Positions 50,701 to 63,154 of a stretch of 64,000 nucleotides of DNA are shown piece after piece. The translations under genes and the position numbers were made by a program. The stretch covers positions 1-64,000 of the forward strand of contig NZ_JAVYIM010000002.1 in the NCBI RefSeq assembly GCF_035968265.1, in the 5' to 3' direction. A model generated the notes under the pieces. The model did not search any database, was not told the origin of the DNA, and saw only the letters and a program-made list of their open reading frames with translations. The DNA is from Nitrosarchaeum sp. (lineage in GTDB: Archaea; Thermoproteota; Nitrososphaeria; Nitrososphaerales; Nitrosopumilaceae). Within the stretch, counting starts at the first letter, position 1; every line of letters starts with the position of its first letter.

Positions 50701-51768
50701 ATGAACAATTCTGATGTTTGTGTTCTTGTGACAGGAGTAGGTGGAGGCAGTCTTGGGCGTGAAATAATCAAAGCATTCAAAATGGCACCACATAATTACA
50801 AAATTGTTGCAACTGACGCTTCAGCAAAAAGCGTAGGTTTGTTTGAAACTACGCATAGATACATTGTTCCTGAAGCAAATTCTGAGAAATATCTTGATAG
50901 TATCCAAAACATATGTTCAAAGGAGAAGGTACAGGTGATAGTACCTGGTTCAGAACCAGAAACTGAGATTATGTCTAAAAACAAAAAATTGTTCTCTGAA
51001 AAAAATATTACAGTACTTACCAATCCATGGAAAACAATACAAACATGCAAAGATAAATTAAATCTGACAAATTTTCTTACCTCAAAAGGAATCACTTGCC
51101 CTAAATCAATACTTTTTGAGAATGATTCAACAATTAAACAAATAGAGCAATACCCTGTTGTTATAAAACCGCGAAGTGGAGCAGGATCAAGAAACGTATT
51201 TCTTGCTCATGATGAGATTGAGGCCAAATTTTTTGGAAATTATTTGTTAAAACATGGAAGTGAGGCAATAATTCAGGAATATGTTGGTGATTATGAGGCT
51301 GAATACACCATTGGAATTCTTTATGCAGATAATGGTAAATTGATCACATCAATTGCGATGAAAAGACTTTTGGAAGGTGGATTATCTACCCGACAAATTA
51401 CTAAGGGACAAAACAATGATAAAAAATATGTGATCTCTTCTGGAATTTCCCAAGGTGAATTCAACGAATTCACTGAAGTGAGAAAAGCTGGGGAATCTAT
51501 TGCAAAAGTTCTAGATGCAGATGGCCCAATTAACATACAATGCAGAAAAACCAAAGATGGAATACTTCCTTTTGAAATAAATCCAAGATTTTCTGGTACC
51601 ACTGGTTCTAGAAGTTTAGTAGGCTGTAATGAACCAGACATTTTATGTAGATACAGATTATTTGGGGAAATACCTCAACAACCAAACTATGAAGTAGGTT
51701 TTGTTCTAAGAGATCTTCAAGAAAAATTTATCACACAAGACGATATAGAGAAGATTCCAAAGATATGA
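50701..51768 (+). CDS. ATP-grasp enzyme (CarB/PylC-like)
   Basis: This 355-residue ATP-grasp protein opens VCVLVTGVGGGSLGREIIKAF. YPVVIKPRSGAGSRNVFLA is the ATP-binding strand, AIIQEYVGDYEAEYTIGIL the second part, and LPFEINPRFSGTTGSRSLVGCNEPDIL the Mg-binding end. It resembles CarB-half or PylC-type ligases seen in glycan clusters. It may join an amino acid or carboxylate to an amine of the sugar, using ATP. Its stop overlaps the HAD gene by four bases (ATGA). Confidence 0.8.
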   Translation: MNNSDVCVLVTGVGGGSLGREIIKAFKMAPHNYKIVATDASAKSVGLFETTHRYIVPEANSEKYLDSIQNICSKEKVQVIVPGSEPETEIMSKNKKLFSEKNITVLTNPWKTIQTCKDKLNLTNFLTSKGITCPKSILFENDSTIKQIEQYPVVIKPRSGAGSRNVFLAHDEIEAKFFGNYLLKHGSEAIIQEYVGDYEAEYTIGILYADNGKLITSIAMKRLLEGGLSTRQITKGQNNDKKYVISSGISQGEFNEFTEVRKAGESIAKVLDADGPINIQCRKTKDGILPFEINPRFSGTTGSRSLVGCNEPDILCRYRLFGEIPQQPNYEVGFVLRDLQEKFITQDDIEKIPKI

Positions 51769-52460
51769 TCAACCTAATCATCTTGGATTTTGATGATACA
51801 ATAACTGATAACAGATTATTGGATTTTAAGGCATTTGAAACTCCGTGTAAAAGTCTGGGTATACCTCCACCTTCACTTAAAATGATATCTTCTTCACGAA
51901 AAAAGGGATTATTGGCAAAAGAAATTATGCAAAAACATCTTAAAAAAATCGGAAAATCCAACCTACTGAATGATTTTCTATCAAAAAGAGACATATTTTT
52001 GAGCGATTCAAAATCAATGTATCGCCTACAACTCAAAAAACATGTAATACAAGTTTTATCTCTTTTAAAGAGAAAAAAAATAAAATGCATTTTATGCTCT
52101 GCACGCAAAAATAAACAAATGGTAAAATCGTTTTTGAAATATAATAAAATTGACAGCTATTTTTTTGCAACATATTTTATGCATGATCTGGGGTTTGTCA
52201 TTGATAATATAGTTAGATCAAATCGTGTCTTGATAAAGACAAGTTTACTAAAACAGATAATAAAAGATGAACACATTGATCCGCAAAGAGTACTGTATGT
52301 TGGAAACTCTTCTGAAGACTTGGAATCTGCAACTTTGCTAAAAATACCATTTGTTTATATAGAAAATGATTATTTGAACAAAGAATCCGATCTTGATATG
52401 ACTAGGATTAGTAACATGCTTGATCTAAAACAACAAATACAATCACTGGTGGTAAAATGA
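51765..52460 (+). CDS. HAD-superfamily phosphatase
   Basis: This 231-residue HAD-fold protein has motif I LDFDDTITDN (DxDxT), motif II-like CILCSARKNKQMVKSF and motif IV VLYVGNSSEDLESATLL. It should be a small-molecule phosphatase. In nonulosonic acid biosynthesis a phosphatase removes 9-phosphate from a sialic-acid-type product; PseG, the usual UDP-sugar hydrolase, is not seen here, so this gene might fill part of the pathway. It overlaps both neighbours by ATGA junctions, so a shared transcript is certain in practice. Confidence 0.82.
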   Translation: MINLIILDFDDTITDNRLLDFKAFETPCKSLGIPPPSLKMISSSRKKGLLAKEIMQKHLKKIGKSNLLNDFLSKRDIFLSDSKSMYRLQLKKHVIQVLSLLKRKKIKCILCSARKNKQMVKSFLKYNKIDSYFFATYFMHDLGFVIDNIVRSNRVLIKTSLLKQIIKDEHIDPQRVLYVGNSSEDLESATLLKIPFVYIENDYLNKESDLDMTRISNMLDLKQQIQSLVVK

Positions 52461-53335
52461 AAATTCTTGTTACTGGTGCAACAGGTTTTATTGGTTCACA
52501 CCTGATGAAGTCTTTGTCAAGAAACAACAAGGTTCACGGTCTGTCCCGTTCTAAAAAATCACAAAATATTTTTCAAATTTCATTATCTGACAAACAAAAA
52601 CTTGCTAGACATATGAAGAAAAACAAATATGATATGGTAATTCATTTAGCAGCCTCTCTTGAAGAAAGCACACCATTTGACATGTTCGTCAAAAACTGTG
52701 TTAGCACTGCAAATATTTTGGAATGTTGTGCAGAAACTAATGTTTCAAAAGTAATTTTTTCATCCTCACAGCTAGTATATGGCAAATCAACATATCTGCC
52801 AATTGATGAAGATCATCCCAAAAATCCAATAAATAATTACGCTTTATCCAAATTGATCGGCGAAGAAATATGCAAAATGTATCACAATACATATGATCTC
52901 TCAATCCAAATTTTACGTTTATCATCAGTATATGGTCCAGGTCAATCTTCCAAATACATCATACCTACTATGATGATAAAGAGTGTAAACAACAAAGACA
53001 TTGAAATCCATCGTTACAAAAATGGGTTTCAACTAATGGATTTTGTTCATGTTAAGGATGTATGCAAAGCTATCTCCCTAGCTTGCAAGTCTAAATCAAA
53101 ATTTGGTATCTATAATATTGCATCTGGCAAGCCCATAACTGCAAATGACATAGCCGATAAACTTTCCCAAGTTACTAGAATACGTACAATTAACATAGAC
53201 AGAGAAGCTAATCATCTTTTTTATGATATTTCTAAAGCAAAAAGAGAACTTGACTTTACACCATCTATTCCACTGGATAAAAAAACACTAAAAGAAATGC
53301 ATAAAAACATCGTTTCAAAGTATGACTTTCTTTAA
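52457..53335 (+). CDS. NAD-dependent epimerase/dehydratase
   Basis: This 292-residue extended SDR has KILVTGATGFIGSHLMKSL, then FSSSQLVYGK and YALSKLIGEEICKMYH with the catalytic YxxxK. LSSVYGPGQSSKYI and FQLMDFVHVKDVCKAI follow in the substrate domain. It lies in an ATGA-coupled operon with the ATP-grasp and HAD genes. Its substrate could be a nucleotide sugar in the nonulosonic acid block; the exact reaction cannot be read. Confidence 0.84.
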   Translation: MKILVTGATGFIGSHLMKSLSRNNKVHGLSRSKKSQNIFQISLSDKQKLARHMKKNKYDMVIHLAASLEESTPFDMFVKNCVSTANILECCAETNVSKVIFSSSQLVYGKSTYLPIDEDHPKNPINNYALSKLIGEEICKMYHNTYDLSIQILRLSSVYGPGQSSKYIIPTMMIKSVNNKDIEIHRYKNGFQLMDFVHVKDVCKAISLACKSKSKFGIYNIASGKPITANDIADKLSQVTRIRTINIDREANHLFYDISKAKRELDFTPSIPLDKKTLKEMHKNIVSKYDFL

Positions 53336-53373
53336 TTACAACAAATAAATCCTGAATGTTGGTATAATCCATA

Positions 53374-54108
53374 TTGAAAACGACAGTAATAGCAGAGATT
53401 GGTTCTAACTGGGAAGGCAGTGTGCCAAAAGGAATCAAAATTATAAAAGAATGCAAAAAGGCAGGAGCAGACGTCGTAAAGTTTCAGATGTGGCGTGCAA
53501 GTGATTTGTATTCTCCAACTCATCCTCAATGGAAAGTCATTAAAAAATCAGAACTAACATTTGATAAAGTAAAAAAACTAAAAAAGGCAGCTGATTCAAT
53601 TGGCATTGAATTTCTATGCAGTGCATTTTATCCTGAAGCAATAAATTTTCTTGAAAAACTCGGTGTCAAACGATATAAAGTTGCATCAAGAACATGCTTG
53701 TTCAAAGATCCACACTCAAAGGAAACACTGGATCTCGAAGCATCAACCAAAAAACCAATAATAATCAGTATGGGAATGGGTGGAGATAAAAATCTAATAA
53801 AAAAAATATTTGGCAAAAACAAGATCACTTTCTGTTATTGCATCTCTGAATATCCTCTAGAGTTTAAGAAAATTAATTGGACAGATGCAATCCAATATGA
53901 CGGATTTTCAGATCATACCATAGGGATTACGGCACCAATAATGTATGCCATTTTAAAGAAACAACAAGGCTCTAAGAACATACTTATTGAAAAACATGTC
54001 AAATCAAAAAATTCCAAAGGACCTGATGCAGAAACATCCATTGATACAGAAAAACTGGCAGATCTGATTTCTCACATTAGGCTTGTTGAAAAAGCAAATC
54101 TTAACTAA
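53374..54108 (+). CDS. NeuB-family sialic acid/pseudaminic acid synthase, short form lacking the SAF domain
   Basis: This 244-residue protein starts at TTG and has the NeuB TIM-barrel. TTVIAEIGSNWEGSVPKGIK begins it, then ADVVKFQMWRASDLYS, FLCSAFYPEAINFLEKLG, KPIIISMGMGG, and YDGFSDHTIGITAP. ILIEKHVKSK is the last barrel motif, with the PDAETSID end. NeuB enzymes condense phosphoenolpyruvate with a six-carbon amino sugar. Usual length is about 340-350 residues with a C-terminal SAF (antifreeze-like) domain; that domain is absent here. The next gene on the other strand is the aminotransferase. Confidence 0.83.
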   Translation: MKTTVIAEIGSNWEGSVPKGIKIIKECKKAGADVVKFQMWRASDLYSPTHPQWKVIKKSELTFDKVKKLKKAADSIGIEFLCSAFYPEAINFLEKLGVKRYKVASRTCLFKDPHSKETLDLEASTKKPIIISMGMGGDKNLIKKIFGKNKITFCYCISEYPLEFKKINWTDAIQYDGFSDHTIGITAPIMYAILKKQQGSKNILIEKHVKSKNSKGPDAETSIDTEKLADLISHIRLVEKANLN

Positions 54109-54111
54109 ATT

Positions 54112-55218
54112 TCACACGTTTTGATTTACTATTCTGATAATTCTGTCAACTTCTGCATCTGATAGATTTTGATGAATAGGTATTGAAACTATCTCCTTGC
54201 CTGCAGTTTCTGTAATGGGTAATGAAATATTTTTTTTATACAAAGACATTGTATGAACAGGTCTATAATGAATACCTGTCTCTATTCCTGCGTTAAACAT
54301 TTTTTCCATAAATTTTTTTCTGTTTTTCACCATTACCCAATAAAGATGATAGCTACAATTTTCATCAAAAGGCATTTTTCTTTCCAAGTTGATTTCTTTT
54401 GAATATCGTTTGGATATTTGTCGTCTAGTTCTGTTCATGGCATCCAGTTTTTTCAGCTGAATCAAACCTATGGCTGCAGAAATCTCATTCATGTAATAAT
54501 TCCATCCAATCTCTTTTACATCATATTCAAAATTATTTCTGTTTGTTATGCCACACCATCTACGTGCCAGCAAAACATCTCTCATCTTTTGATGTTCTGA
54601 ATTTATTGCGATTAATCCGCCAGTTGGCATTGCCAAATTCTTTACTGGATGGAAACTAAAACATACTATATCTCCATGACTTCCAATCCTTTTGCCCTTA
54701 AATTTGGCTCCAGATGCATGTGCAGCATCCTCAATCAGTATAAGATCATTTTTTTTGCATATTTGCTGAATCTTGTCTAAATCACATGGCATTCCTGCAT
54801 AATGAACAGGTAGGATTACCTTGGTTTTTTTGGTAATTAGCTTTTCAATGTGATGAGGATCAATACACATGGTATCATGTTTTACATCAGCAAATACTGG
54901 TTTTCCACCATTCAGAAGAATTGCGTTTACAGTAGCAACAAACGTAAGTGATGGGACTATTACCTCTTTTCCTTTTAGATCCATTAATGATAAAGCAAGA
55001 TTTAGTGCGGCTGTCCCACTATTGACTGCAACACAATCATCTGAGTCAATGAATTTTCTAAATGAATCTTCAAATTTTTTAACATGACCTATACCTGCTC
55101 CAGATGCCCAGAAATGACTTTTTAGAACCTGTTGAGTAACACGTTGCTCTTCAGTTCCAACTGATGGATCAAACAGTTTAATTTTTTTAGCCATGTTTGC
55201 TTTTCTCTTTTTTGACAA
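54112..55218 (-). CDS. DegT/DnrJ/EryC1 aminotransferase (PseC/LegC-like)
   Basis: This 368-residue aminotransferase has the PLP Lys193 in SFHPVKNLAMPTGG. AVNSGTAALNLALSLM and EVIVPSLTFVATVNAILL are family motifs, and LIEDAAHASGAKF holds the PLP ring Asp. It should transaminate UDP-4-keto-6-deoxy-GlcNAc or its C5 epimer made by the PseB gene at 56008. The first eight codons are optional: a second ATG (55194) gives MAKKIKLFDPSVG. Its 5' end overlaps the cytidylyltransferase gene on the same strand. Confidence 0.88.
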   Translation of the reverse strand: MSKKRKANMAKKIKLFDPSVGTEEQRVTQQVLKSHFWASGAGIGHVKKFEDSFRKFIDSDDCVAVNSGTAALNLALSLMDLKGKEVIVPSLTFVATVNAILLNGGKPVFADVKHDTMCIDPHHIEKLITKKTKVILPVHYAGMPCDLDKIQQICKKNDLILIEDAAHASGAKFKGKRIGSHGDIVCFSFHPVKNLAMPTGGLIAINSEHQKMRDVLLARRWCGITNRNNFEYDVKEIGWNYYMNEISAAIGLIQLKKLDAMNRTRRQISKRYSKEINLERKMPFDENCSYHLYWVMVKNRKKFMEKMFNAGIETGIHYRPVHTMSLYKKNISLPITETAGKEIVSIPIHQNLSDAEVDRIIRIVNQNV

Positions 55219-55966
55219 ATTCTTTATCTTCTTTTAATGATTTCAAGTAGCCTTCATTTGGATTATCGTTTTTGTTCATATTAAACAAGGTTGGTTCCTC
55301 CAAGTACAAGTTCATTATATCCTTAAGGAGTATAGGTCTATTTTTGATGCGTTCCACAATTATTTTTACTAATTCTAAATCCTTTTCTCTGTCTACTTCC
55401 CATCTTAAATGTGAAAGATCCTTTGAGCTGGTTACATTGAATATCTTAAACTCATCTTTATGATTGTAAATGTAAGGCGTAACATGTTCCCGTTCTGATG
55501 GCAATTTTGCCATCTTCCAAGTTTTCTCTAACGCTTCAAAAGAAAACACCTCCACTTCTGTTCCATATGGAAAAGTATATGGAAGAAAATTTGAGACATA
55601 ATCGTATTTAGACTTTAAAAAAACTTTAATTACACTGTCTACTATCTGAGGATCTATCAATGGTTTATCTGACGGAATCCTAACAATTGTGGAAAATGCA
55701 AATTTTTTTGCACACTGATAATGCCTATCTAAAACATCTTTTTCAGAGCCTCTAAAAAATTTGAATTTATTTTCTTGCGCAAATTTTGCAATTACATTGT
55801 CTTCTTCAAGATCTGTTGTTGCAATTACAATGTCATCTAGTAACTCAGAGTGTTGAAGCTGACTTACAACATAGTGAAGAATAGTATTTTTTTTGTCTAG
55901 TAATTTCATTGCTTTACCAGGTAATCGTGAAGAACCAGTTCTTGCTTGAATTATACATCCAATCAT
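55187..55966 (-). CDS. Acylneuraminate cytidylyltransferase-like (SpsF type)
   Basis: This 259-residue nucleotidyltransferase starts MIGCIIQARTGSSRLPGKAM, the signature of SpsF-type CMP-sugar synthases. DDIVIATTDLEEDNVIAKFA, FRGSEKDVLDRHYQCAK and IVRIPSDKPLIDPQIVD continue it. It would activate the nonulosonic acid with CTP to a CMP-sugar for transfer. The spore-coat SpsF family is shorter than NeuA, in line with the length here. Its gene lies between PseB and the aminotransferase and is cotranscribed with them. Confidence 0.85.
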   Translation of the reverse strand: MIGCIIQARTGSSRLPGKAMKLLDKKNTILHYVVSQLQHSELLDDIVIATTDLEEDNVIAKFAQENKFKFFRGSEKDVLDRHYQCAKKFAFSTIVRIPSDKPLIDPQIVDSVIKVFLKSKYDYVSNFLPYTFPYGTEVEVFSFEALEKTWKMAKLPSEREHVTPYIYNHKDEFKIFNVTSSKDLSHLRWEVDREKDLELVKIIVERIKNRPILLKDIMNLYLEEPTLFNMNKNDNPNEGYLKSLKEDKEFVKKEKSKHG

Positions 55967-56007
55967 GTTGTAATCAGCATTTTTTTGTAAACTGGGAGAT
56001 GTTTCAT

Positions 56008-57009
56008 TTAAAGTAAATCGGATTTTCCAATAAGTTCTTTTAACATGTCTTTTTTAATCAGTTCCACTTTATCTGATGAATATGACTCAGTCAACGCAGT
56101 TCTTTTCATATCTGGATATTTTTGCCTAATTTCATCATCAGAAAGTGAACGCTGAAGTATCATGTATCTTGTATTGCCTTCTAAAGTATTTCGAAGTTCA
56201 TCTGCGTTTATCAATGTCTCATGGTATTTTTCTCCCTGTCTTACAGGTATTTTTTCTTCGCCTGTATTTCCAAGTAGTTCCTGTAATGATTCTTTGACTG
56301 TTTCAATTGTATATGCTTTTAATTTTGGCACAAAAATTTCTGAGCCTTTTCCTGCAAACGTAGAAGATAAAATAAAATCCAGCGCCTCCTCCATAGTGAT
56401 ACTGAATCGTGTCATCTCTGGACTTGTAATGGTAAGTTTTTGTTTTGATTTTATCTGTTGAATAAACTTGGGAATAACCGAACCACTACTTCCTAAAACA
56501 TTGCCATATCTCAGAGCTATGAATTTTGTCTTGTGACGTTTTTTATCCAAGTAATTACTTGCTGTAACAAATAATTTCTCCATTAGTAGCTTTGTTGCCC
56601 CGTATGTGTTTAGAGGCGATACAGCCTTGTCAGTACCGACCCCTACGGCAATCTCTACATCTTCATGAAGACATGCCTCAATGACATTGCGAGATCCTAT
56701 AACATTTGTATTGATTGCTTCAAATGGATTGTATTCAACCACTGGTACATGTTTTAGCGCAGCTGCATGAAATACAATATCTATATCTTCTAATGCCCTC
56801 TGTAATCTCGGAGCATCTCTAATATCTCCAATCAAATATCTTAGCCTATCATCATTTAACTCTGATTGCATCATAACCTGTTTGTTTTCATTTCTACTAA
56901 AAATGCGGATAACATCAACTTCTGATTTTAACAGTCTTTTTGTTAATGCCTGTCCTAAAGAACCAGTTCCACCTGTGATGAGAATTTTCTTGCCCTTTAG
57001 CTCATTCAT
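56008..57009 (-). CDS. pseB: UDP-N-acetylglucosamine 4,6-dehydratase (PseB-like)
   Basis: This 333-residue SDR has ILITGGTGSLGQALTKRLLK as its cofactor site. HAAALKHVPVVEYNPFEAI (81-99) and GVGTDKAVSPLNTYGATK (123-140) carry the PseB catalytic Asp127, Lys128, Tyr136 and Lys140. RYGNVLGSSGSVIPKFIQQI and MTRFSITMEEALDFIL follow. It turns UDP-GlcNAc into a UDP-4-keto-6-deoxy sugar with possible C5 inversion. It is the first committed step of pseudaminic-like acid synthesis. The gene leads the minus-strand unit 57009-54112. Confidence 0.92.
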   Translation of the reverse strand: MNELKGKKILITGGTGSLGQALTKRLLKSEVDVIRIFSRNENKQVMMQSELNDDRLRYLIGDIRDAPRLQRALEDIDIVFHAAALKHVPVVEYNPFEAINTNVIGSRNVIEACLHEDVEIAVGVGTDKAVSPLNTYGATKLLMEKLFVTASNYLDKKRHKTKFIALRYGNVLGSSGSVIPKFIQQIKSKQKLTITSPEMTRFSITMEEALDFILSSTFAGKGSEIFVPKLKAYTIETVKESLQELLGNTGEEKIPVRQGEKYHETLINADELRNTLEGNTRYMILQRSLSDDEIRQKYPDMKRTALTESYSSDKVELIKKDMLKELIGKSDLL

Positions 57010-57196: not shown

Positions 57197-57346
57197 ATGT
57201 TAAAAGAAGAGCATAACAAAATGGCTATGATTGAGAATTTGGTATGGGAAGCAGCTAAGATAATGTTTCCAAACTCATACATTGATCCAAAAAGAATTAC
57301 AAAAGCAAAGGAAAATCTACTAGAGTCTCTTATGAAAAGTAATTGA
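57197..57346 (+). CDS. 49-residue protein at the head of the ebo-like operon
   Basis: An ATG at 57197 opens a 49-codon frame ending at the TGA at 57344-57346. The product is helical and basic, with LVWEAAKIMFPNSYIDPKRI in the middle and no motif I know. Its stop overlaps the TTG start of the next gene (TTGA), a classic coupling. An AT-rich GTTTAAAAAA element (57150-57159) lies upstream and may be the promoter for the whole operon. It might be an unrelated small partner; I see no reason to call it EboA. The 187-base gap before it holds no other feature. Confidence 0.66.
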   Translation: MLKEEHNKMAMIENLVWEAAKIMFPNSYIDPKRITKAKENLLESLMKSN

Positions 57347-58182
57347 AGACTGGCTTTAGCACAAACGCATTTACTGAAAAATCGATGTTACATGGTATAG
57401 ATACCGTATCTGATATTGGATATGACGGAGTAGAACTTGTTCTTGATGTGCCTCACGCTTTCTTGCCATTAAATAAAAAATACTTGTCTGAAATAAAAAA
57501 TTGCATTAAAAAAAATAAAATTGAGATAGCAAATCTAAATGCCAATACCGTGGTAGGCTGGTATGACAACAATACTATAATAGAAAAATTTGAACCGTCA
57601 CTTTCAAACAAAAACGAAAAACTTAGACAATGGAGATTAAATTACACTAAAAAAGCAATCGAACTAGCTGACGAACTAGAATCTCCTAGCATATGCCTCA
57701 CTTCAGGAATTTCAACTAAATCCGAAAAACAAACTTGTCTGCATACTTTTAAAAAATCTTTAATCGAACTTGCATCATTTGCAGAGACAAAAAATATTTC
57801 AATAGCAATAGAATACGAACCAGGATTGTTAATTGAGAACTCCGATGATGTATATCATATTGTTTCTCAGTTCAATAACGTTGGATTAAATCTTGATGTG
57901 TGTCATGCAGCTGTTTTAGGCGAGGACATATCTAAAATTATCAAAAAATTTCGGAAAAAAATCATTCATACTCACATAAGTGACTGCAAGAACAATATTC
58001 ACTTTCATCTAATTCCTGGTTTGGGCAGCATCAACTTTTCTGCTATGTACAGATCACTAAAAGAAATCAATTATGAAGGATTTCTTACAGCAGAGCTTTA
58101 CACATATTCAAAAAATCCAGAGTATGCAGCAAAGATTACTTTTACATACCTAAAGAATTTGATGTTAAATCATGTTTATTGA
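57343..58182 (+). CDS. Xylose-isomerase-like TIM-barrel protein, EboE-like (copy 1)
   Basis: This 279-residue TIM-barrel protein starts at TTG overlapping the previous stop. KTGFSTNAFTEKSMLHGIDT is the start, with GYDGVELVLDVPHAF. SIAIEYEPGLLIENSDDVYHI carries the catalytic-type Glu, and LNLDVCHAAVLGEDI the metal His/Asp. IIHTHISDCKNNIHFHLIPGLGSINF and GFLTAELYTYS complete the metal site. This is the AP-endonuclease-2 family, like EboE of bacterial ebo clusters. It should isomerise or epimerise a sugar-like metabolite. It is a paralogue of the gene at 58976 and overlaps the TatD gene by 11 bases. Confidence 0.83.
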   Translation: MKTGFSTNAFTEKSMLHGIDTVSDIGYDGVELVLDVPHAFLPLNKKYLSEIKNCIKKNKIEIANLNANTVVGWYDNNTIIEKFEPSLSNKNEKLRQWRLNYTKKAIELADELESPSICLTSGISTKSEKQTCLHTFKKSLIELASFAETKNISIAIEYEPGLLIENSDDVYHIVSQFNNVGLNLDVCHAAVLGEDISKIIKKFRKKIIHTHISDCKNNIHFHLIPGLGSINFSAMYRSLKEINYEGFLTAELYTYSKNPEYAAKITFTYLKNLMLNHVY

Positions 58183-58966
58183 TCCACACATTCACATGTA
58201 TTCTAGAACGACAGATGATTATGAAAAGATGATTTTATCTGGGATTAAGACTGTTATAGAACCTTCATTTTGGCTTGGGCAAGCACGTACTTCATCAAAG
58301 ACCCTGATTGATTATTGGGAGTATCTGATAAATTTTGAACGAGCAAGAGCTAAGGGATTTGGTATAAATCATTATTGTGCCATTTCTGTAAATCCAAAAG
58401 AAGCCAATAACTCACAACTTGCAAATGAATCATTAGATGTTATGGCTAACTATCTTAGTAAAGAAGGGGTTGTAGCAGTTGGCGAGATAGGATTTGATAT
58501 GATTACCAAAGAAGAAGAAAAAGTGTTTACACGACAATTGATAATGGCTGAAGAACTTAAAATGCCAGTTATTATTCACACCCCACATATCAACAAATTG
58601 GAAGGAATAAAAAAAACATTTGATATTATAAAAAATTGCAATGCCACAAAATCAAGAATTATAATAGATCATAATACCGAAGAAACAATCGAACTTTCTT
58701 TGTCTTTTGATGTGATGGTAGGAATTACTGTTTATCCGTATACCAAAGTGAGCTCCATAAGAGCAGTTAATATGTTAAAAAAATATGGCACAGATAGGAT
58801 TTTGATCAACAGTTCTGCAGATTGGGGAATATCTGATCCTCTAAGTGTGCCTAAAACTGCAATCCAAATGGAAAAAGACGGTTTTAGTAAAAACGAGATT
58901 GAGCAATTACTTTTTCATAACCCAAATAATTTTTTTAAACAATCAAAAAATTACATTTCATTATAG
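58172..58966 (+). CDS. TatD-like metal-dependent hydrolase (EboB-like)
   Basis: This 264-residue amidohydrolase has FIDPHIHMYSRT as the first metal motif, VVAVGEIGFDM with the bridging Glu, PVIIHTPHINKL, RIIIDHNTEETIEL, and INSSADWGISDPLSVPKTA with the final Asp. SSADWG and the following SDPL are the pattern I know from EboB members. The reaction may be hydrolysis of a cyclic or amide metabolite; it is not typical DNA-processing TatD, given its neighbours. It is nested between the two TIM barrels. Confidence 0.84.
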   Translation: MFIDPHIHMYSRTTDDYEKMILSGIKTVIEPSFWLGQARTSSKTLIDYWEYLINFERARAKGFGINHYCAISVNPKEANNSQLANESLDVMANYLSKEGVVAVGEIGFDMITKEEEKVFTRQLIMAEELKMPVIIHTPHINKLEGIKKTFDIIKNCNATKSRIIIDHNTEETIELSLSFDVMVGITVYPYTKVSSIRAVNMLKKYGTDRILINSSADWGISDPLSVPKTAIQMEKDGFSKNEIEQLLFHNPNNFFKQSKNYISL

Positions 58967-58975
58967 ATTAATTTC

Positions 58976-59800
58976 ATGAAATTATCCTTTAGCACAAATG
59001 CATATCGAAATTATTCTGTTGAAGATAGCATTCGTTCAATTTCTTCTGTAGGATATACTGCAATTGAATTGATGTGTGATACACCACATGCATTTCCTCC
59101 GTTGTCTGCTGAAAAAATAGATTCAATTAAAAAAACACTACAAGAAAATCAAATGGAGATTTCCAACTTAAATGGATTTATGATGTGTGCTGTAAATGAT
59201 TTTCATCATCCATCATGGATTGAAGAAAACCAAAAAGATCGCAATATTCGAATACAACATACCAAATATTGCATTGAATTAGCCTCAAAACTTGGCGCAA
59301 AAACGGTTTCTACAGAACCTGGGGGGCCGCTTTTGGGATTATCTGAAAAAAAAGGACTGGAATTATTTTATGATGGCTTAAATGAAGTAATTCCTGTAGC
59401 AGAAAAAAACAATGTAAAACTTTTGATCGAACCTGAACCTGGACTGCTGATAGAAAACTCCTCACAATTTCTAAATTTTATGTCTCGCTTTAACACTAAA
59501 TATCTTGGTCTAAATTTTGACGTGGGTCATTTTTTTTGTGTAGGTGAAAAACCAGATGAGTTAATTAAAACACTTGCAGATTTCATATCGCACATTCATC
59601 TAGAAGACATTGCAGAATCACGAGAACACAAACATTTGATCCCTGGTCACGGTGCAATTGATCTCAAAAAAGTTTTTGATACAATTAGTGATATTGATTA
59701 TAAAAATTACATCACAATCGAATTATATCCTTATCTAGACAATCCAGAAAACGCAGCTAAAGAGGCAATGCAGTTTATGAATTCTCTTAATCTGAAATGA
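58976..59800 (+). CDS. Xylose-isomerase-like TIM-barrel protein, EboE-like (copy 2)
   Basis: This 274-residue paralogue of the gene at 57343 keeps KLSFSTNAYRNYSVEDSIRS and the EPG loops: TVSTEPGGPLLGLSE and LLIEPEPGLLIENSS. The metal site is in LNFDVGHFFCVGE, HIHLEDIAESREHKHLIPGHG and YITIELYPY. It starts nine bases after the TatD gene. All His/Asp/Glu ligands of the family are present, so it should be active. Two copies in one operon suggest different substrates or a heteromeric enzyme. Confidence 0.84.
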   Translation: MKLSFSTNAYRNYSVEDSIRSISSVGYTAIELMCDTPHAFPPLSAEKIDSIKKTLQENQMEISNLNGFMMCAVNDFHHPSWIEENQKDRNIRIQHTKYCIELASKLGAKTVSTEPGGPLLGLSEKKGLELFYDGLNEVIPVAEKNNVKLLIEPEPGLLIENSSQFLNFMSRFNTKYLGLNFDVGHFFCVGEKPDELIKTLADFISHIHLEDIAESREHKHLIPGHGAIDLKKVFDTISDIDYKNYITIELYPYLDNPENAAKEAMQFMNSLNLK

Positions 59801-60651
59801 TAAAATCATATTTTCAGCTAGTACGATTTCCAGGTATCTTTACTGCATTCTCAAATATTCTTTTAGGGTTTTTTTTATCTTCAGAATTTATTATAGATTG
59901 GCTTAATCTATTTCCACTTCTTGCAGCCTCAGGTTTTTTATTTTTAGCTGGAATGACGCTAAATGATTATTTTGATTACAATATAGATAAAAATGAACGA
60001 CCAGACAGACCACTTCCCTCAGGAAAAATATCCAGAAAAGCAACACTGTATCTTGGCATTGCATTGTTTGTTGCCGCAAACATTTCTGCATCTTTTGTTG
60101 GATTTCAAGCAGTAATGATATCTGTCATTATGACAATTCTCATCTTAGCATATGACATAAAACTAAAAAATATCAAAACCATTGGAATCTTAAATCTTTC
60201 ATCCATACGATTTTTGAATGTTATTTTAGGTTCCAGTATGGTTCTTTTTAATTTTGAAATTATCTGGATGTCAATCCCAATTGCAATTTTTGTAGCAGGA
60301 ATTAGCACTCTTGCAAAAACCGAAAGTTCCATTTATCCAAGAAAAGCAAAAATCACTAATCTGGTCCTTGTTTTATTCACCATATCTTATGTTATGGTTT
60401 TAACATATGATAGTGGGTTTACTCATTGGCTAGTTCTTGGAGTGTTTGTTATAGTTAATTATTTACCTTGGATGGTTATCAAAGAAAAATCCTCCAAGAC
60501 CACGCAAAAAATAGTAACGATTCAACTACTTTCAATTCCTCTTTTAGATGCAATTTTGGTCATGGCTTTTTCTAATATTGTTTTTGCAATAGTGACAATG
60601 TCTATGATATTTCCAGCATATGTTGCTTTACGAAAATTATACTTGACATAA
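59797..60651 (+). CDS. UbiA-family prenyltransferase (EboC-like)
   Basis: This 284-residue membrane protein has about nine hydrophobic helices. The first Asp-rich motif NDYFDYNID (56-64), followed by KNERPDRPLPSG, binds the prenyl-diphosphate magnesium. The second part has LAYDIKLKNIKTIGILNLSSIRFLNVI. It should attach an isoprenoid to a small acceptor at the membrane. Its start overlaps the TIM-barrel stop by four bases (ATGA). It could also serve in archaeal lipid or quinone synthesis, but the neighbours favour the ebo role. Confidence 0.87.
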   Translation: MIKSYFQLVRFPGIFTAFSNILLGFFLSSEFIIDWLNLFPLLAASGFLFLAGMTLNDYFDYNIDKNERPDRPLPSGKISRKATLYLGIALFVAANISASFVGFQAVMISVIMTILILAYDIKLKNIKTIGILNLSSIRFLNVILGSSMVLFNFEIIWMSIPIAIFVAGISTLAKTESSIYPRKAKITNLVLVLFTISYVMVLTYDSGFTHWLVLGVFVIVNYLPWMVIKEKSSKTTQKIVTIQLLSIPLLDAILVMAFSNIVFAIVTMSMIFPAYVALRKLYLT

Positions 60652-60700
60652 ATTAGTATGAATGGTTTATTTTTAAGTTAGAAATATTCTGAATAACTAA

Positions 60701-62050
60701 ATGAAAAAATTAATTGTGATTAATGTTGTAGGATTGACAAAAAATTCAATTAACAGTATCTCGCTTCCTAACATGTCAAAAATTTTTACTGATGGGTTTT
60801 GCTCTTCGATGATTCCTTCTTTTCCTGCAGTAACGTGCAGTATCCAGTCTTCAATTACTTCAGGACATTATCCTGCAGATCATGGCATCATTTCAAATGG
60901 TTTCTATGATCGAGATACAAAACAGGTTTCGTTCTGGGAACAGTATGACAGTTTAGTTCAAAAGCCAAGAATCTGGGATATTTTAAAGAAGACAAACCCC
61001 AAATTAAAAACAGCTGTACTTTTCTGGCAAAATTCTCTTTACACAAATTCTGACTTTATCATTACTCCAAAGCCGATTCATCTTGAAGACCAAACTATAA
61101 TGTGGTGTTATTCAAAACCTCTCAATTACTATGAGGAAGTTGCCCAGCATCTAGGCGAATTTGATCTCAAATGGTATTGGGGACCATTTGCATCCATCAA
61201 GTCTAGCCAGTGGATAATTAATGCATCAATGTATACAATAAAAAAACATAGACCTGATCTAGTCCTTGTATATCTACCTCATTTGGATTATTCTGCACAA
61301 AAGCATGGCCCTCAAAGTAATGAATTCAAACAGAGTTTAATTGAGATTGATAATATGATTGGGAATTTGATAGATTTTCTTGATGCCAATGAGTTTGGCA
61401 ATGAATATGAGATAATGATTCACTCTGAATATGGATTTAATGAAGTGAATTACTCTTTGTCCCCAAACATACTTTTACGTCAAAATGGATTACTTTCCAC
61501 TCGAAATATACTGGGAAAAGAATACATTGATTTTGAAAACAGTAATGCATTTGCAATGGTTGATCATCAGATAGCACATATTTTTATAAAACCTGGTCAT
61601 GATGATGCCGTTACTTCAATTTTTAAAAAAGAAAAAAGCATTGCAAAAATTCTTGATAAAGAATCTCAAATAAAATTAAACATAAATCATACAAGAAGCG
61701 GTGAGTTGATTTTATACGCAAAGAATGACTGCTGGTTCAATTATTACTGGTGGGAAAATGAAAATCTTGCACCCTCATTTACTTTTAATGTTGATATCCA
61801 TCGAAAACCTGGATATGATCCACTTGAATTGTTTTTTGATCCAACAACTAAAAGAATTTCTCATGATACTTCATTGATCAAAGGTTCTCATGGTGTGTTT
61901 GATAGTAAAAATACTGACGCTTTACCTATATTTGGAATGTCTATTAAACCAAAGAAAGAAACTAATATTATAGATATTTCTCAAATAGCGCCCACCATAT
62001 TGAAATTCTTCAACTGTAGTTATGATCTTCCAAATGATTCAATCTTGTAA
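60701..62050 (+). CDS. Alkaline-phosphatase-superfamily protein (EboF-like nucleotide pyrophosphatase/phosphodiesterase)
   Basis: This 449-residue protein begins KKLIVINVVGLTKNSINSI, and FPAVTCSIQSSITSGHYPADH gives the catalytic-type Thr45 and the DHGI segment. ISNGFYDRDTKQVSFWEQYDSLVQ and YLPHLDYSAQKHGP follow, the last with metal ligands. HSEYGFNEVNYSLSPNILLRQNGLL replaces the usual DHGM. NVVGLT, PAVTCS-Q and the SNGFYDRD run are the pattern I know for EboF. It should cleave a phosphodiester or pyrophosphate. It ends the operon and is convergent with the dehydrogenase. Confidence 0.83.
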   Translation: MKKLIVINVVGLTKNSINSISLPNMSKIFTDGFCSSMIPSFPAVTCSIQSSITSGHYPADHGIISNGFYDRDTKQVSFWEQYDSLVQKPRIWDILKKTNPKLKTAVLFWQNSLYTNSDFIITPKPIHLEDQTIMWCYSKPLNYYEEVAQHLGEFDLKWYWGPFASIKSSQWIINASMYTIKKHRPDLVLVYLPHLDYSAQKHGPQSNEFKQSLIEIDNMIGNLIDFLDANEFGNEYEIMIHSEYGFNEVNYSLSPNILLRQNGLLSTRNILGKEYIDFENSNAFAMVDHQIAHIFIKPGHDDAVTSIFKKEKSIAKILDKESQIKLNINHTRSGELILYAKNDCWFNYYWWENENLAPSFTFNVDIHRKPGYDPLELFFDPTTKRISHDTSLIKGSHGVFDSKNTDALPIFGMSIKPKKETNIIDISQIAPTILKFFNCSYDLPNDSIL

Positions 62051-62131: not shown

Positions 62132-63154
62132 TTACTCATTTGTAATTATCACTTTCATCACACCATCTCCTGATCTAGCATAATTCAGAGCTTTTGTGAT
62201 GTCCTGAATGGGAACTTTGTGTGTTACTAACTGTCTGACGTTGATTGATTTATTATTTATAATTTCAAATGATTCTCTTATCTCGTTTGTTGAAGCAGCA
62301 TAACTTGGTATAATTGAAATCTCTTTAGAGTATATCTCACTTAAATTAGTCTTTAAATTACATTCTTTGCTAGGTTCACCAAATAAAAGAATGGTGCCTC
62401 CCTTTCTTACTAAATTAATTGTACTATGAAAAACCTCTGTCTGTGAAGTGGCAATTATAATCAAATCCAAATCACTTGTATGTGTACTGATTTTTTCACT
62501 AATGTTTGATTCATCTCCTTTTAATGGAATTCCAATATTTGCCTCTTTGCAGAAATTTAATCGAAATTCATTAACGTCTACACAAAAAATCTTCCCAAAA
62601 CCATAGTGTTTTGCCAACATTGCGTGCATGACGCCAATCGGTCCCACCCCAAATATCAATACTGAATCATTTTTTGAGAAAGAAAGTTTCTTCCAAGCCC
62701 TAATACAACATGCCAGCGGTTCAATTAGTGACGCTTCCTCAAAACTCATGGTATCTGGAATTTTAATTAAACTTTCATGTCTGATATTCCATTCAGGAAC
62801 CAAAAATTTTTCAGACATCCCGCAAGGCTCTAAACATTCAATATATTTTTCACACATAGTTTGATTACCATGTTTGCAATAATGACAGTTATTGCAAGGA
62901 GCATGGTGGTGTACAAACACTCTATCGTTTAATTCAAATTCTTTCACGTTACTGCCTTTTTTTACAATGATTCCTGCAACTTCATGACCAAGCTTAGATG
63001 ATGATCTGCATGAATCACCAAATATGTTTCCCAAGTCTGATCCGCAGATTCCACATGATCTCATTTTTATTAATACGTCATTATCTCCACACACTGGCTC
63101 TGTGACATCTACAAGATTAACTCCCGACGCTTGATCTTTTCTAACGCATTTCAT
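62132..63154 (-). CDS. Zinc-dependent medium-chain alcohol dehydrogenase
   Basis: This 340-residue MDR protein has the catalytic zinc site CGICGSDLGNIFGD with GHEVAGIIVKKGSNV. The structural-zinc lobe is CNNCHYCKHGNQTMCEKYIEC. The NAD site is VLIFGVGPIGVMHAMLAKHYG. ADH relatives with this plan oxidise sugars or polyols (threonine or sorbitol dehydrogenase type). It is convergent with the ebo-like operon at an 81-base gap, and its promoter lies in the 146-base divergent gap before 63301. A metabolic link with the operon is a guess. Confidence 0.87.
   Translation of the reverse strand: MKCVRKDQASGVNLVDVTEPVCGDNDVLIKMRSCGICGSDLGNIFGDSCRSSSKLGHEVAGIIVKKGSNVKEFELNDRVFVHHHAPCNNCHYCKHGNQTMCEKYIECLEPCGMSEKFLVPEWNIRHESLIKIPDTMSFEEASLIEPLACCIRAWKKLSFSKNDSVLIFGVGPIGVMHAMLAKHYGFGKIFCVDVNEFRLNFCKEANIGIPLKGDESNISEKISTHTSDLDLIIIATSQTEVFHSTINLVRKGGTILLFGEPSKECNLKTNLSEIYSKEISIIPSYAASTNEIRESFEIINNKSINVRQLVTHKVPIQDITKALNYARSGDGVMKVIITNE

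Follow-up and report, generated by a model that had tools for sequence, protein, structure and literature searches.

A homologue of the bacterial ebo gene cluster is, almost certainly, encoded near the end of the 64,000-nucleotide stretch of Nitrosarchaeum DNA analysed here (the window). The source genome, a 1.53-Mb assembly with the operon on contig 2, carries AmoA, and the host is thus an ammonia-oxidising archaeon. Five ebo-type open reading frames occupy 57343-62050 of the forward strand in the order E1-B-E2-C-F. Three of them encode members of the EboB, EboC and EboF families, as judged from the identities of EboB and EboF to their bacterial counterparts, the top-scoring model of EboC, and the separation of EboC from the other UbiA proteins of the genome. 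The other two encode short triose-phosphate isomerase (TIM) barrels. This archaeal-type ebo is best read as an old, separate lineage and not as the six-gene bacterial set carried over, and its product is most likely an isoprenoid-anchored oxidised polyol or cyclitol that would be used at the membrane. The operon and its neighbour comprise the following features.

57197..57346, forward strand: small conserved protein of 49 amino acids, first gene of the operon; a conserved open reading frame without a known family
57343..58182, forward strand: E1, short TIM barrel of the keto-sugar epimerase/isomerase type (PF01261), TTG start
58172..58966, forward strand: B, EboB homologue, TatD-like metal-dependent hydrolase (PF01026)
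58976..59800, forward strand: E2, second short TIM barrel (PF01261)
59797..60651, forward strand: C, EboC homologue, UbiA-superfamily intramembrane prenyltransferase (PF01040)
60701..62050, forward strand: F, EboF homologue, phosphodiesterase/nucleotide-pyrophosphatase fold (PF01663)
61427..61432, forward strand: EboF codons for Glu243-Tyr244, in place of the Asp-His of the 'SDHG' motif, from the alignment to the nucleotide pyrophosphatase/phosphodiesterase XAC NPP (2gsn)
62132..63154, reverse strand: zinc-dependent medium-chain dehydrogenase (MDR) of the polyol/ketose dehydrogenase type, ebo-specific paralogue, convergent with F

The initial annotation had described five consecutive genes of these kinds, and they were recovered, with the Pfam domains PF01261 (twice), PF01026, PF01040 and PF01663, each above its cut-off. 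The junction lengths were also reproduced: E1 and B overlap by 11 bases and E2 and C by 4, B and E2 are 9 bases apart, and F follows C after 49 bases; the small reading frame overlaps E1 by 4 bases. The extent proposed for the block, 57197-62050, holds, except that 57197 opens the unnamed 49-residue frame and E1 begins at 57343. This small gene and the adjacent dehydrogenase had been left uncounted. Purifying selection acts on each of the seven genes, with ratios of nonsynonymous to synonymous substitution rates (dN/dS) of 0.08-0.33 against a sister species, including 0.09 for the small frame. Copies of the small frame that are 44-94% identical lie directly upstream of E1 in seven other loci (eight loci including the window), and a Pfam search with it returned no family match. 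It was also considered as a shortened EboA, which was ruled out by a negative profile comparison with EboA.

Over 97% of its length, the B protein shares 44-50% identity with most EboB proteins that lie in annotated clusters, including those of cyanobacteria, Burkholderiales, Bacteroidota and Actinomycetota; its identity to the divergent Deinococcus copy is 38%. The candidate metal ligands His8, Glu105, His136, His167 and Asp217, which correspond to the H/E/H/H/D set of TatD-like hydrolases, are invariant in 17 sequences, and the nearest solved structure is AF_1765 (3guw). The C protein scored highest against the NCBIfam EboC model NF035940 (150.7 bits, below the curated cut-off of 250), with the SCO3242 family as the runner-up at 98.2 bits, and was placed apart from the genome's three remaining UbiA proteins in a tree (all trees are quick IQ-TREE runs with midpoint rooting, and support refers to the Shimodaira-Hasegawa-like approximate likelihood ratio test, SH-aLRT, only). 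Its NDxxDxxxD motif is intact, with Asn56, Asp57, Asp60 and Asp64 invariant in 76 EboC sequences; Tyr119 and Arg138 are likewise invariant, and Lys124 of the YxxxxK motif is found in 72 of the 76. The F protein is 33-40% identical to bacterial EboF over most of its length, and falls in one tree with it. The motifs first noted by eye, SSADWGISDPL in B and NVVGLT and PAVTCS in F, were confirmed, and the kinship of these three proteins with EboB, EboC and EboF was borne out by identity, model scores and trees, with no pull towards unrelated families. When GTDB contigs were scanned with an EboB alignment, at least 590 loci were recovered, and 80 of these were kept. In Planctomycetota-type and uncultured bacterial genomes (L127, L134, L139, L141 and L142), an EboA-EboB pair was observed with no further ebo gene recognised in the surrounding 10 kb or so, and EboB may act alone in some settings.

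The active site of EboF departs from that of its structural relatives. The AlphaFold model (predicted local distance difference test, pLDDT, 92.9) has ENPP6 and XAC NPP as its nearest folds. In the alignment to XAC NPP, the first metal Asp is replaced by Val10, one His by Gln200, and the Asp-His pair of SDHG by Glu243-Tyr244; the NPP residues at these positions are taken here to be metal ligands. The replacements extend across 79 EboF proteins of all groups (Val10 in 75, Gln200 in 76, Glu243 in 77 and Tyr244 in all 79). Of the NPP-type two-metal site (Asp; Asp/His; Asp/His; His) and its Thr nucleophile, only Thr45 and Asp196, kept in all 79, and His397, kept in 78, remain. Asp288, His289, His293, His367, Asp373 and Glu376 are invariant in the same set. 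Judged from these alignments, canonical two-metal chemistry is unlikely in EboF, the bacterial proteins included. The initial annotation of an EboF-like phosphatase was therefore right about the homology, but because the standard ligands are lost family-wide, 'phosphatase' is a poor guide to this protein; that it is an ordinary phosphatase is doubtful, and it probably is not one. In one locus (L044, genome G186), an in-frame TAA lies inside the EboF match, and the gene there may be shortened.

The two TIM barrels had been read as EboE, an assignment that did not survive. Both score 35-37 bits against the NCBIfam EboE model, for which the cut-off is 250, and their best scores are to the IolO and fructoselysine 3-epimerase models (for E1, 101 bits to IolO and 37 to EboE). 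Canonical EboE, of about 380 residues, forms a starred clade apart from E1 and E2. E2 is the closer of the two, as sister of EboE (support 85), yet it lies outside the EboE clade. By model score and tree position, E1 and E2 are not EboE orthologues. E2 groups with the haloarchaeal ebo barrel T1 (support 88) and E1 with the haloarchaeal T2 (support 87), in a group that also contains two bacterial T2-like sequences; since T1 pairs with E2 and T2 with E1, the two-barrel arrangement is common to archaea. The metal-ligand set E/D/H/E is kept in both barrels, and the E1 model (pLDDT 89) has the D-tagatose-3-epimerase-like MJ1311 and Art22 as its nearest folds.

Related versions of ebo occur in many soil and marine archaea, mostly soil archaea of the Nitrososphaeraceae type. 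In genome samples that were even draws and not complete sets, strong EboF matches (at least 50% identity) were found in 16 of 200 genomes of the family, the source genome included, and EboB in 58 of 400 genomes of the order, 15 of them in the source family and 43 in a second family. The latter is taken to be Nitrososphaeraceae, because a Nitrososphaerales sequence (L086) falls among its members in the trees. Other genera have the block in the same gene order, at 42-94% identity, so that the genes are indeed conserved together in related archaea. Type I loci, found in the source genus and four other genera of the family, have the order small frame-E1-B-E2-C-F with dehydrogenase 1, and type II loci, found in the second family and genus g8, have the order dehydrogenase 2-B-E2-C-F-E3. 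In the type II loci L068, L185, L186, L189, L191 and L198, only dehydrogenase 2 and B are together, with E2 and C several kb off or unseen; the Nitrososphaeraceae-type loci L186, L191 and L198 show EboB and the dehydrogenase without EboC or EboF within reach. Thaumarchaeal EboF, EboC and EboB each form one group (support 93, 91 and 68), which favours an old lineage and disfavours recent transfer from bacteria. EboB matches at 27-37% identity in other Thermoproteota were rejected as ebo clusters, as four fetched neighbourhoods held no other ebo gene; one such protein included in the EboB tree lies on a very long branch outside EboB, and these matches were not counted. In another Thermoproteota family (L069 and L070, genomes G083 and G030), an EboB-like protein at 35-37% identity sits in a well conserved but unrelated neighbourhood that spans over 10 genes. 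No report of archaeal ebo was found in the open-licence literature, subscription papers and preprints being outside the scope of that search.

The dehydrogenase at 62132-63154 belongs to the cluster. Wherever a type I locus had enough flanking sequence, a zinc MDR gene lay next to ebo, as it did in many type II loci. Dehydrogenase 1 forms an ebo-specific clade (support 96, starred), sister to a core MDR that is also present in genomes lacking ebo (99, starred, for the two together), and dehydrogenase 2 forms a separate clade (99, starred) in an unrelated MDR lineage. Two independent recruitments of a dehydrogenase to ebo suggest that an oxidation step matters. The nearest solved structures of the protein in the window are ketose reductase 1e3j and sorbitol dehydrogenase, and by model scores it also resembles threonine dehydrogenases.

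Several genes of the bacterial and plastid eboABCDEF set (PMC5133447, PMC6282210) have no counterpart in the archaeal form. A profile search of the archaeal ebo loci gave no EboA (best E-value 0.45), and EboG, sought with one reference sequence only, was not found at these loci. EboD was considered as a gene located elsewhere and rejected, the whole genome containing no PF01761 match. Inositol-3-phosphate synthase, considered as the missing cyclase, was rejected in the same way, since the search of this genome found none; 30 other thaumarchaeal genomes lacked a proper copy and gave three weak sub-cut-off matches only. The likeness to the bacterial set that had been proposed thus holds for EboB, EboC and EboF and fails for EboA, EboD and true EboE. 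In addition to its archaeal host, the archaeal form differs in having the two short TIM barrels instead of canonical EboE, and in having gained the 49-residue protein and the zinc dehydrogenase.

For bacterial ebo, in which EboD is regarded as a sugar phosphate cyclase, the product proposed earlier is an isoprenoid-cyclitol (PMC5133447). Among 92 ebo loci, EboD is present in 24 and inositol-3-phosphate synthase in 26, and the two never occur together; because the loci are related and not independent, no p-value is claimed for this exclusion. The exchange of EboD for another cyclitol-forming enzyme supports a cyclitol product from a new side (the word 'inositol' is absent from the main texts of PMC5133447 and PMC6282210), and strengthens the suggestion of the initial annotation that a prenylated small molecule may be made at the membrane. 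Four haloarchaeal plasmids (Haladaptatus, Natronococcus, Halocatena and Halobaculum) carry B-T1-C-T2 plus F. Like the source operon, they encode EboB, EboC, EboF and two short TIM barrels, the counterparts of E2 and E1, and the order B-E2-C is kept; unlike it, three of the four have inositol-3-phosphate synthase beside F, the E1-type gene follows EboC instead of preceding EboB, EboF is on a long branch, and no dehydrogenase of that kind is adjacent. Actinobacterial clusters, arranged inositol-3-phosphate synthase-C-TIM-A-B-E-F, share with the source operon EboB, an SCO3242-type EboC, EboF, an extra short TIM barrel and the lack of EboD, but differ in possessing EboA, EboE and the synthase, and their short barrel belongs to a different clade. 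A further likeness is to Thermotoga inositol catabolism (NCBIfam IolM and IolO), whose models are among the best for the dehydrogenases and TIM barrels; the scores are, however, far under the equivalog cut-offs, and no other inositol-catabolic genes are in the source block.

A route of oxidation, epimerisation, hydrolysis and prenylation is suggested by the intact EboC motif, the kept ligands of EboB and the TIM barrels, and the resemblance of the E1 model to ketose 3-epimerases. The zinc dehydrogenase would oxidise a polyol, sugar or cyclitol to a keto intermediate, which the two metal-dependent TIM barrels would epimerise or isomerise and EboB would hydrolyse or trim. EboC would then couple the intermediate to an isoprenoid diphosphate in the membrane, and EboF, with its rebuilt active site, may bind or process a phosphorylated or lipid-linked form. 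The resulting isoprenoid-anchored polyol could act, as carrier or anchor, in export or in the modification of the surface. This sequence of steps is put forward tentatively, at somewhat less than an even chance; the broader proposal of an archaeal-type ebo making an isoprenoid-anchored polyol stands at about even. Several observations weigh against it. Neither cyclase was found in the genome, so the cell would have to obtain the cyclitol from outside, or an open-chain polyol would take its place; with a proper inositol-3-phosphate synthase missing from the 30 relatives as well, the thaumarchaeal polyol would derive from another source. EboA was not found in the archaeal loci, and its deletion in Nostoc has the same effect as other ebo deletions. 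The thaumarchaeal EboB grouping is weakly supported, and the haloarchaeal EboF branch is long. Lastly, Ubi-297, an EboC of bacterial origin, attaches farnesyl groups to quinoline carboxylic acids in vitro (PMC9235831).

The operon adjoins a nonulosonic-acid-type gene set at 51765-57009, recognised by eye (NeuB-like, 53374-54108; DegT aminotransferase-like, 54112-55218; CMP-sugar synthetase-like, 55187-55966), except for a PseB-like dehydratase (56008-57009) that scored 322.9 bits in a model search. The same anchor genes that lie just beyond the window (contig 2, 66775-69166) follow a different glycan set in the ebo-less sister species G068, and the anchor of three further genomes that lack ebo is without most of these genes. 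As neighbour sets differ in ebo-less relatives, the operon is regarded as an accessory component of a surface-glycan island that varies in this genus. In genus g8 (L065:1-3878 and L064:10553-15375), ebo borders a PelF-like glycosyltransferase (DUF3492 and GT1), an epimerase and a weak PelG-like exporter, and a Pel-type polysaccharide system is possible in these thaumarchaea. Near several archaeal ebo clusters (L065:10630-16145, L062:978-2972 and L074:18642-20777) lie large proteins in which glucose/sorbosone dehydrogenase, fibronectin III or pentapeptide repeats were recognised; these may represent an extracytoplasmic oxidoreductase partner. A ScyD/ScyE-family gene is annotated on a Streptomyces ebo plasmid (L080). 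Neighbours were also considered as parts of the system in Nitrososphaeraceae-type genomes, where none beyond ebo and the dehydrogenase recurs widely.

This setting raises the possibility that the operon is an accessory module of a lipid-linked surface glycan pathway, in which an unusual lipid-linked sugar would prime or anchor S-layer or capsule glycans and no metabolite would be exported. The adjoining nonulosonic-acid-type set with its dehydratase, the different glycan set in the sister species and the Pel-like genes of g8 are all consistent with such a role. The conserved block contains no glycosyltransferase, however, and stays constant while its neighbours vary among genera; moreover, bacterial ebo works with a non-glycan, scytonemin (PMC6282210). 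This explanation is a possible one, but on balance improbable.

A second explanation, less probable again, is an assembly of Ebo proteins for transport or trafficking at the membrane, which would need no small-molecule product and in which EboF and possibly others would be non-catalytic. Each ebo deletion tested in Nostoc stops monomer export (PMC6282210), the NCBI name for EboE is metabolite traffic protein, and the replacement of the EboF metal site family-wide would fit. An assembly of this kind is difficult to reconcile with the preservation of all prenyltransferase motif residues in EboC and of the metal-ligand candidates in EboB and both TIM barrels, and the recruited dehydrogenase and inositol-phosphate synthase point to small-molecule chemistry. 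It is very improbable that the genes are an ordinary operon for the catabolism of sugars or polyols, next to which a UbiA gene of lipid synthesis lies by chance and whose likeness to ebo is superficial: the best scores of the TIM barrels (to IolO and fructoselysine 3-epimerase) and the resemblance of the dehydrogenase to sorbitol and threonine dehydrogenases would suit it, but not the full-length identity of EboB and EboF to bacterial ebo proteins, the EboC affinity and separate placement of the UbiA protein, the B-E2-C order kept to haloarchaea, or the lack of a sugar kinase or aldolase in the block.

Earlier descriptions of ebo concern bacteria and the plastids of algae; with the archaeal form, carried by abundant nitrifiers, it extends to a second domain. 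If the isoprenoid-anchored polyol proposal is taken furthest, ammonia-oxidising archaea might make an undescribed isoprenoid-anchored keto-polyol or cyclitol that acts as a general export carrier, with the dehydrogenase and two TIM barrels replacing the cyclase and the EboF site rebuilt; this is speculative and rather unlikely as it stands. The natural gene swaps, of EboD for inositol-3-phosphate synthase and of canonical EboE for short TIM barrels, together with the dehydrogenase recruited twice, restrict the chemistry to the prenylation of polyols or cyclitols, and indicate which genes could be tested.

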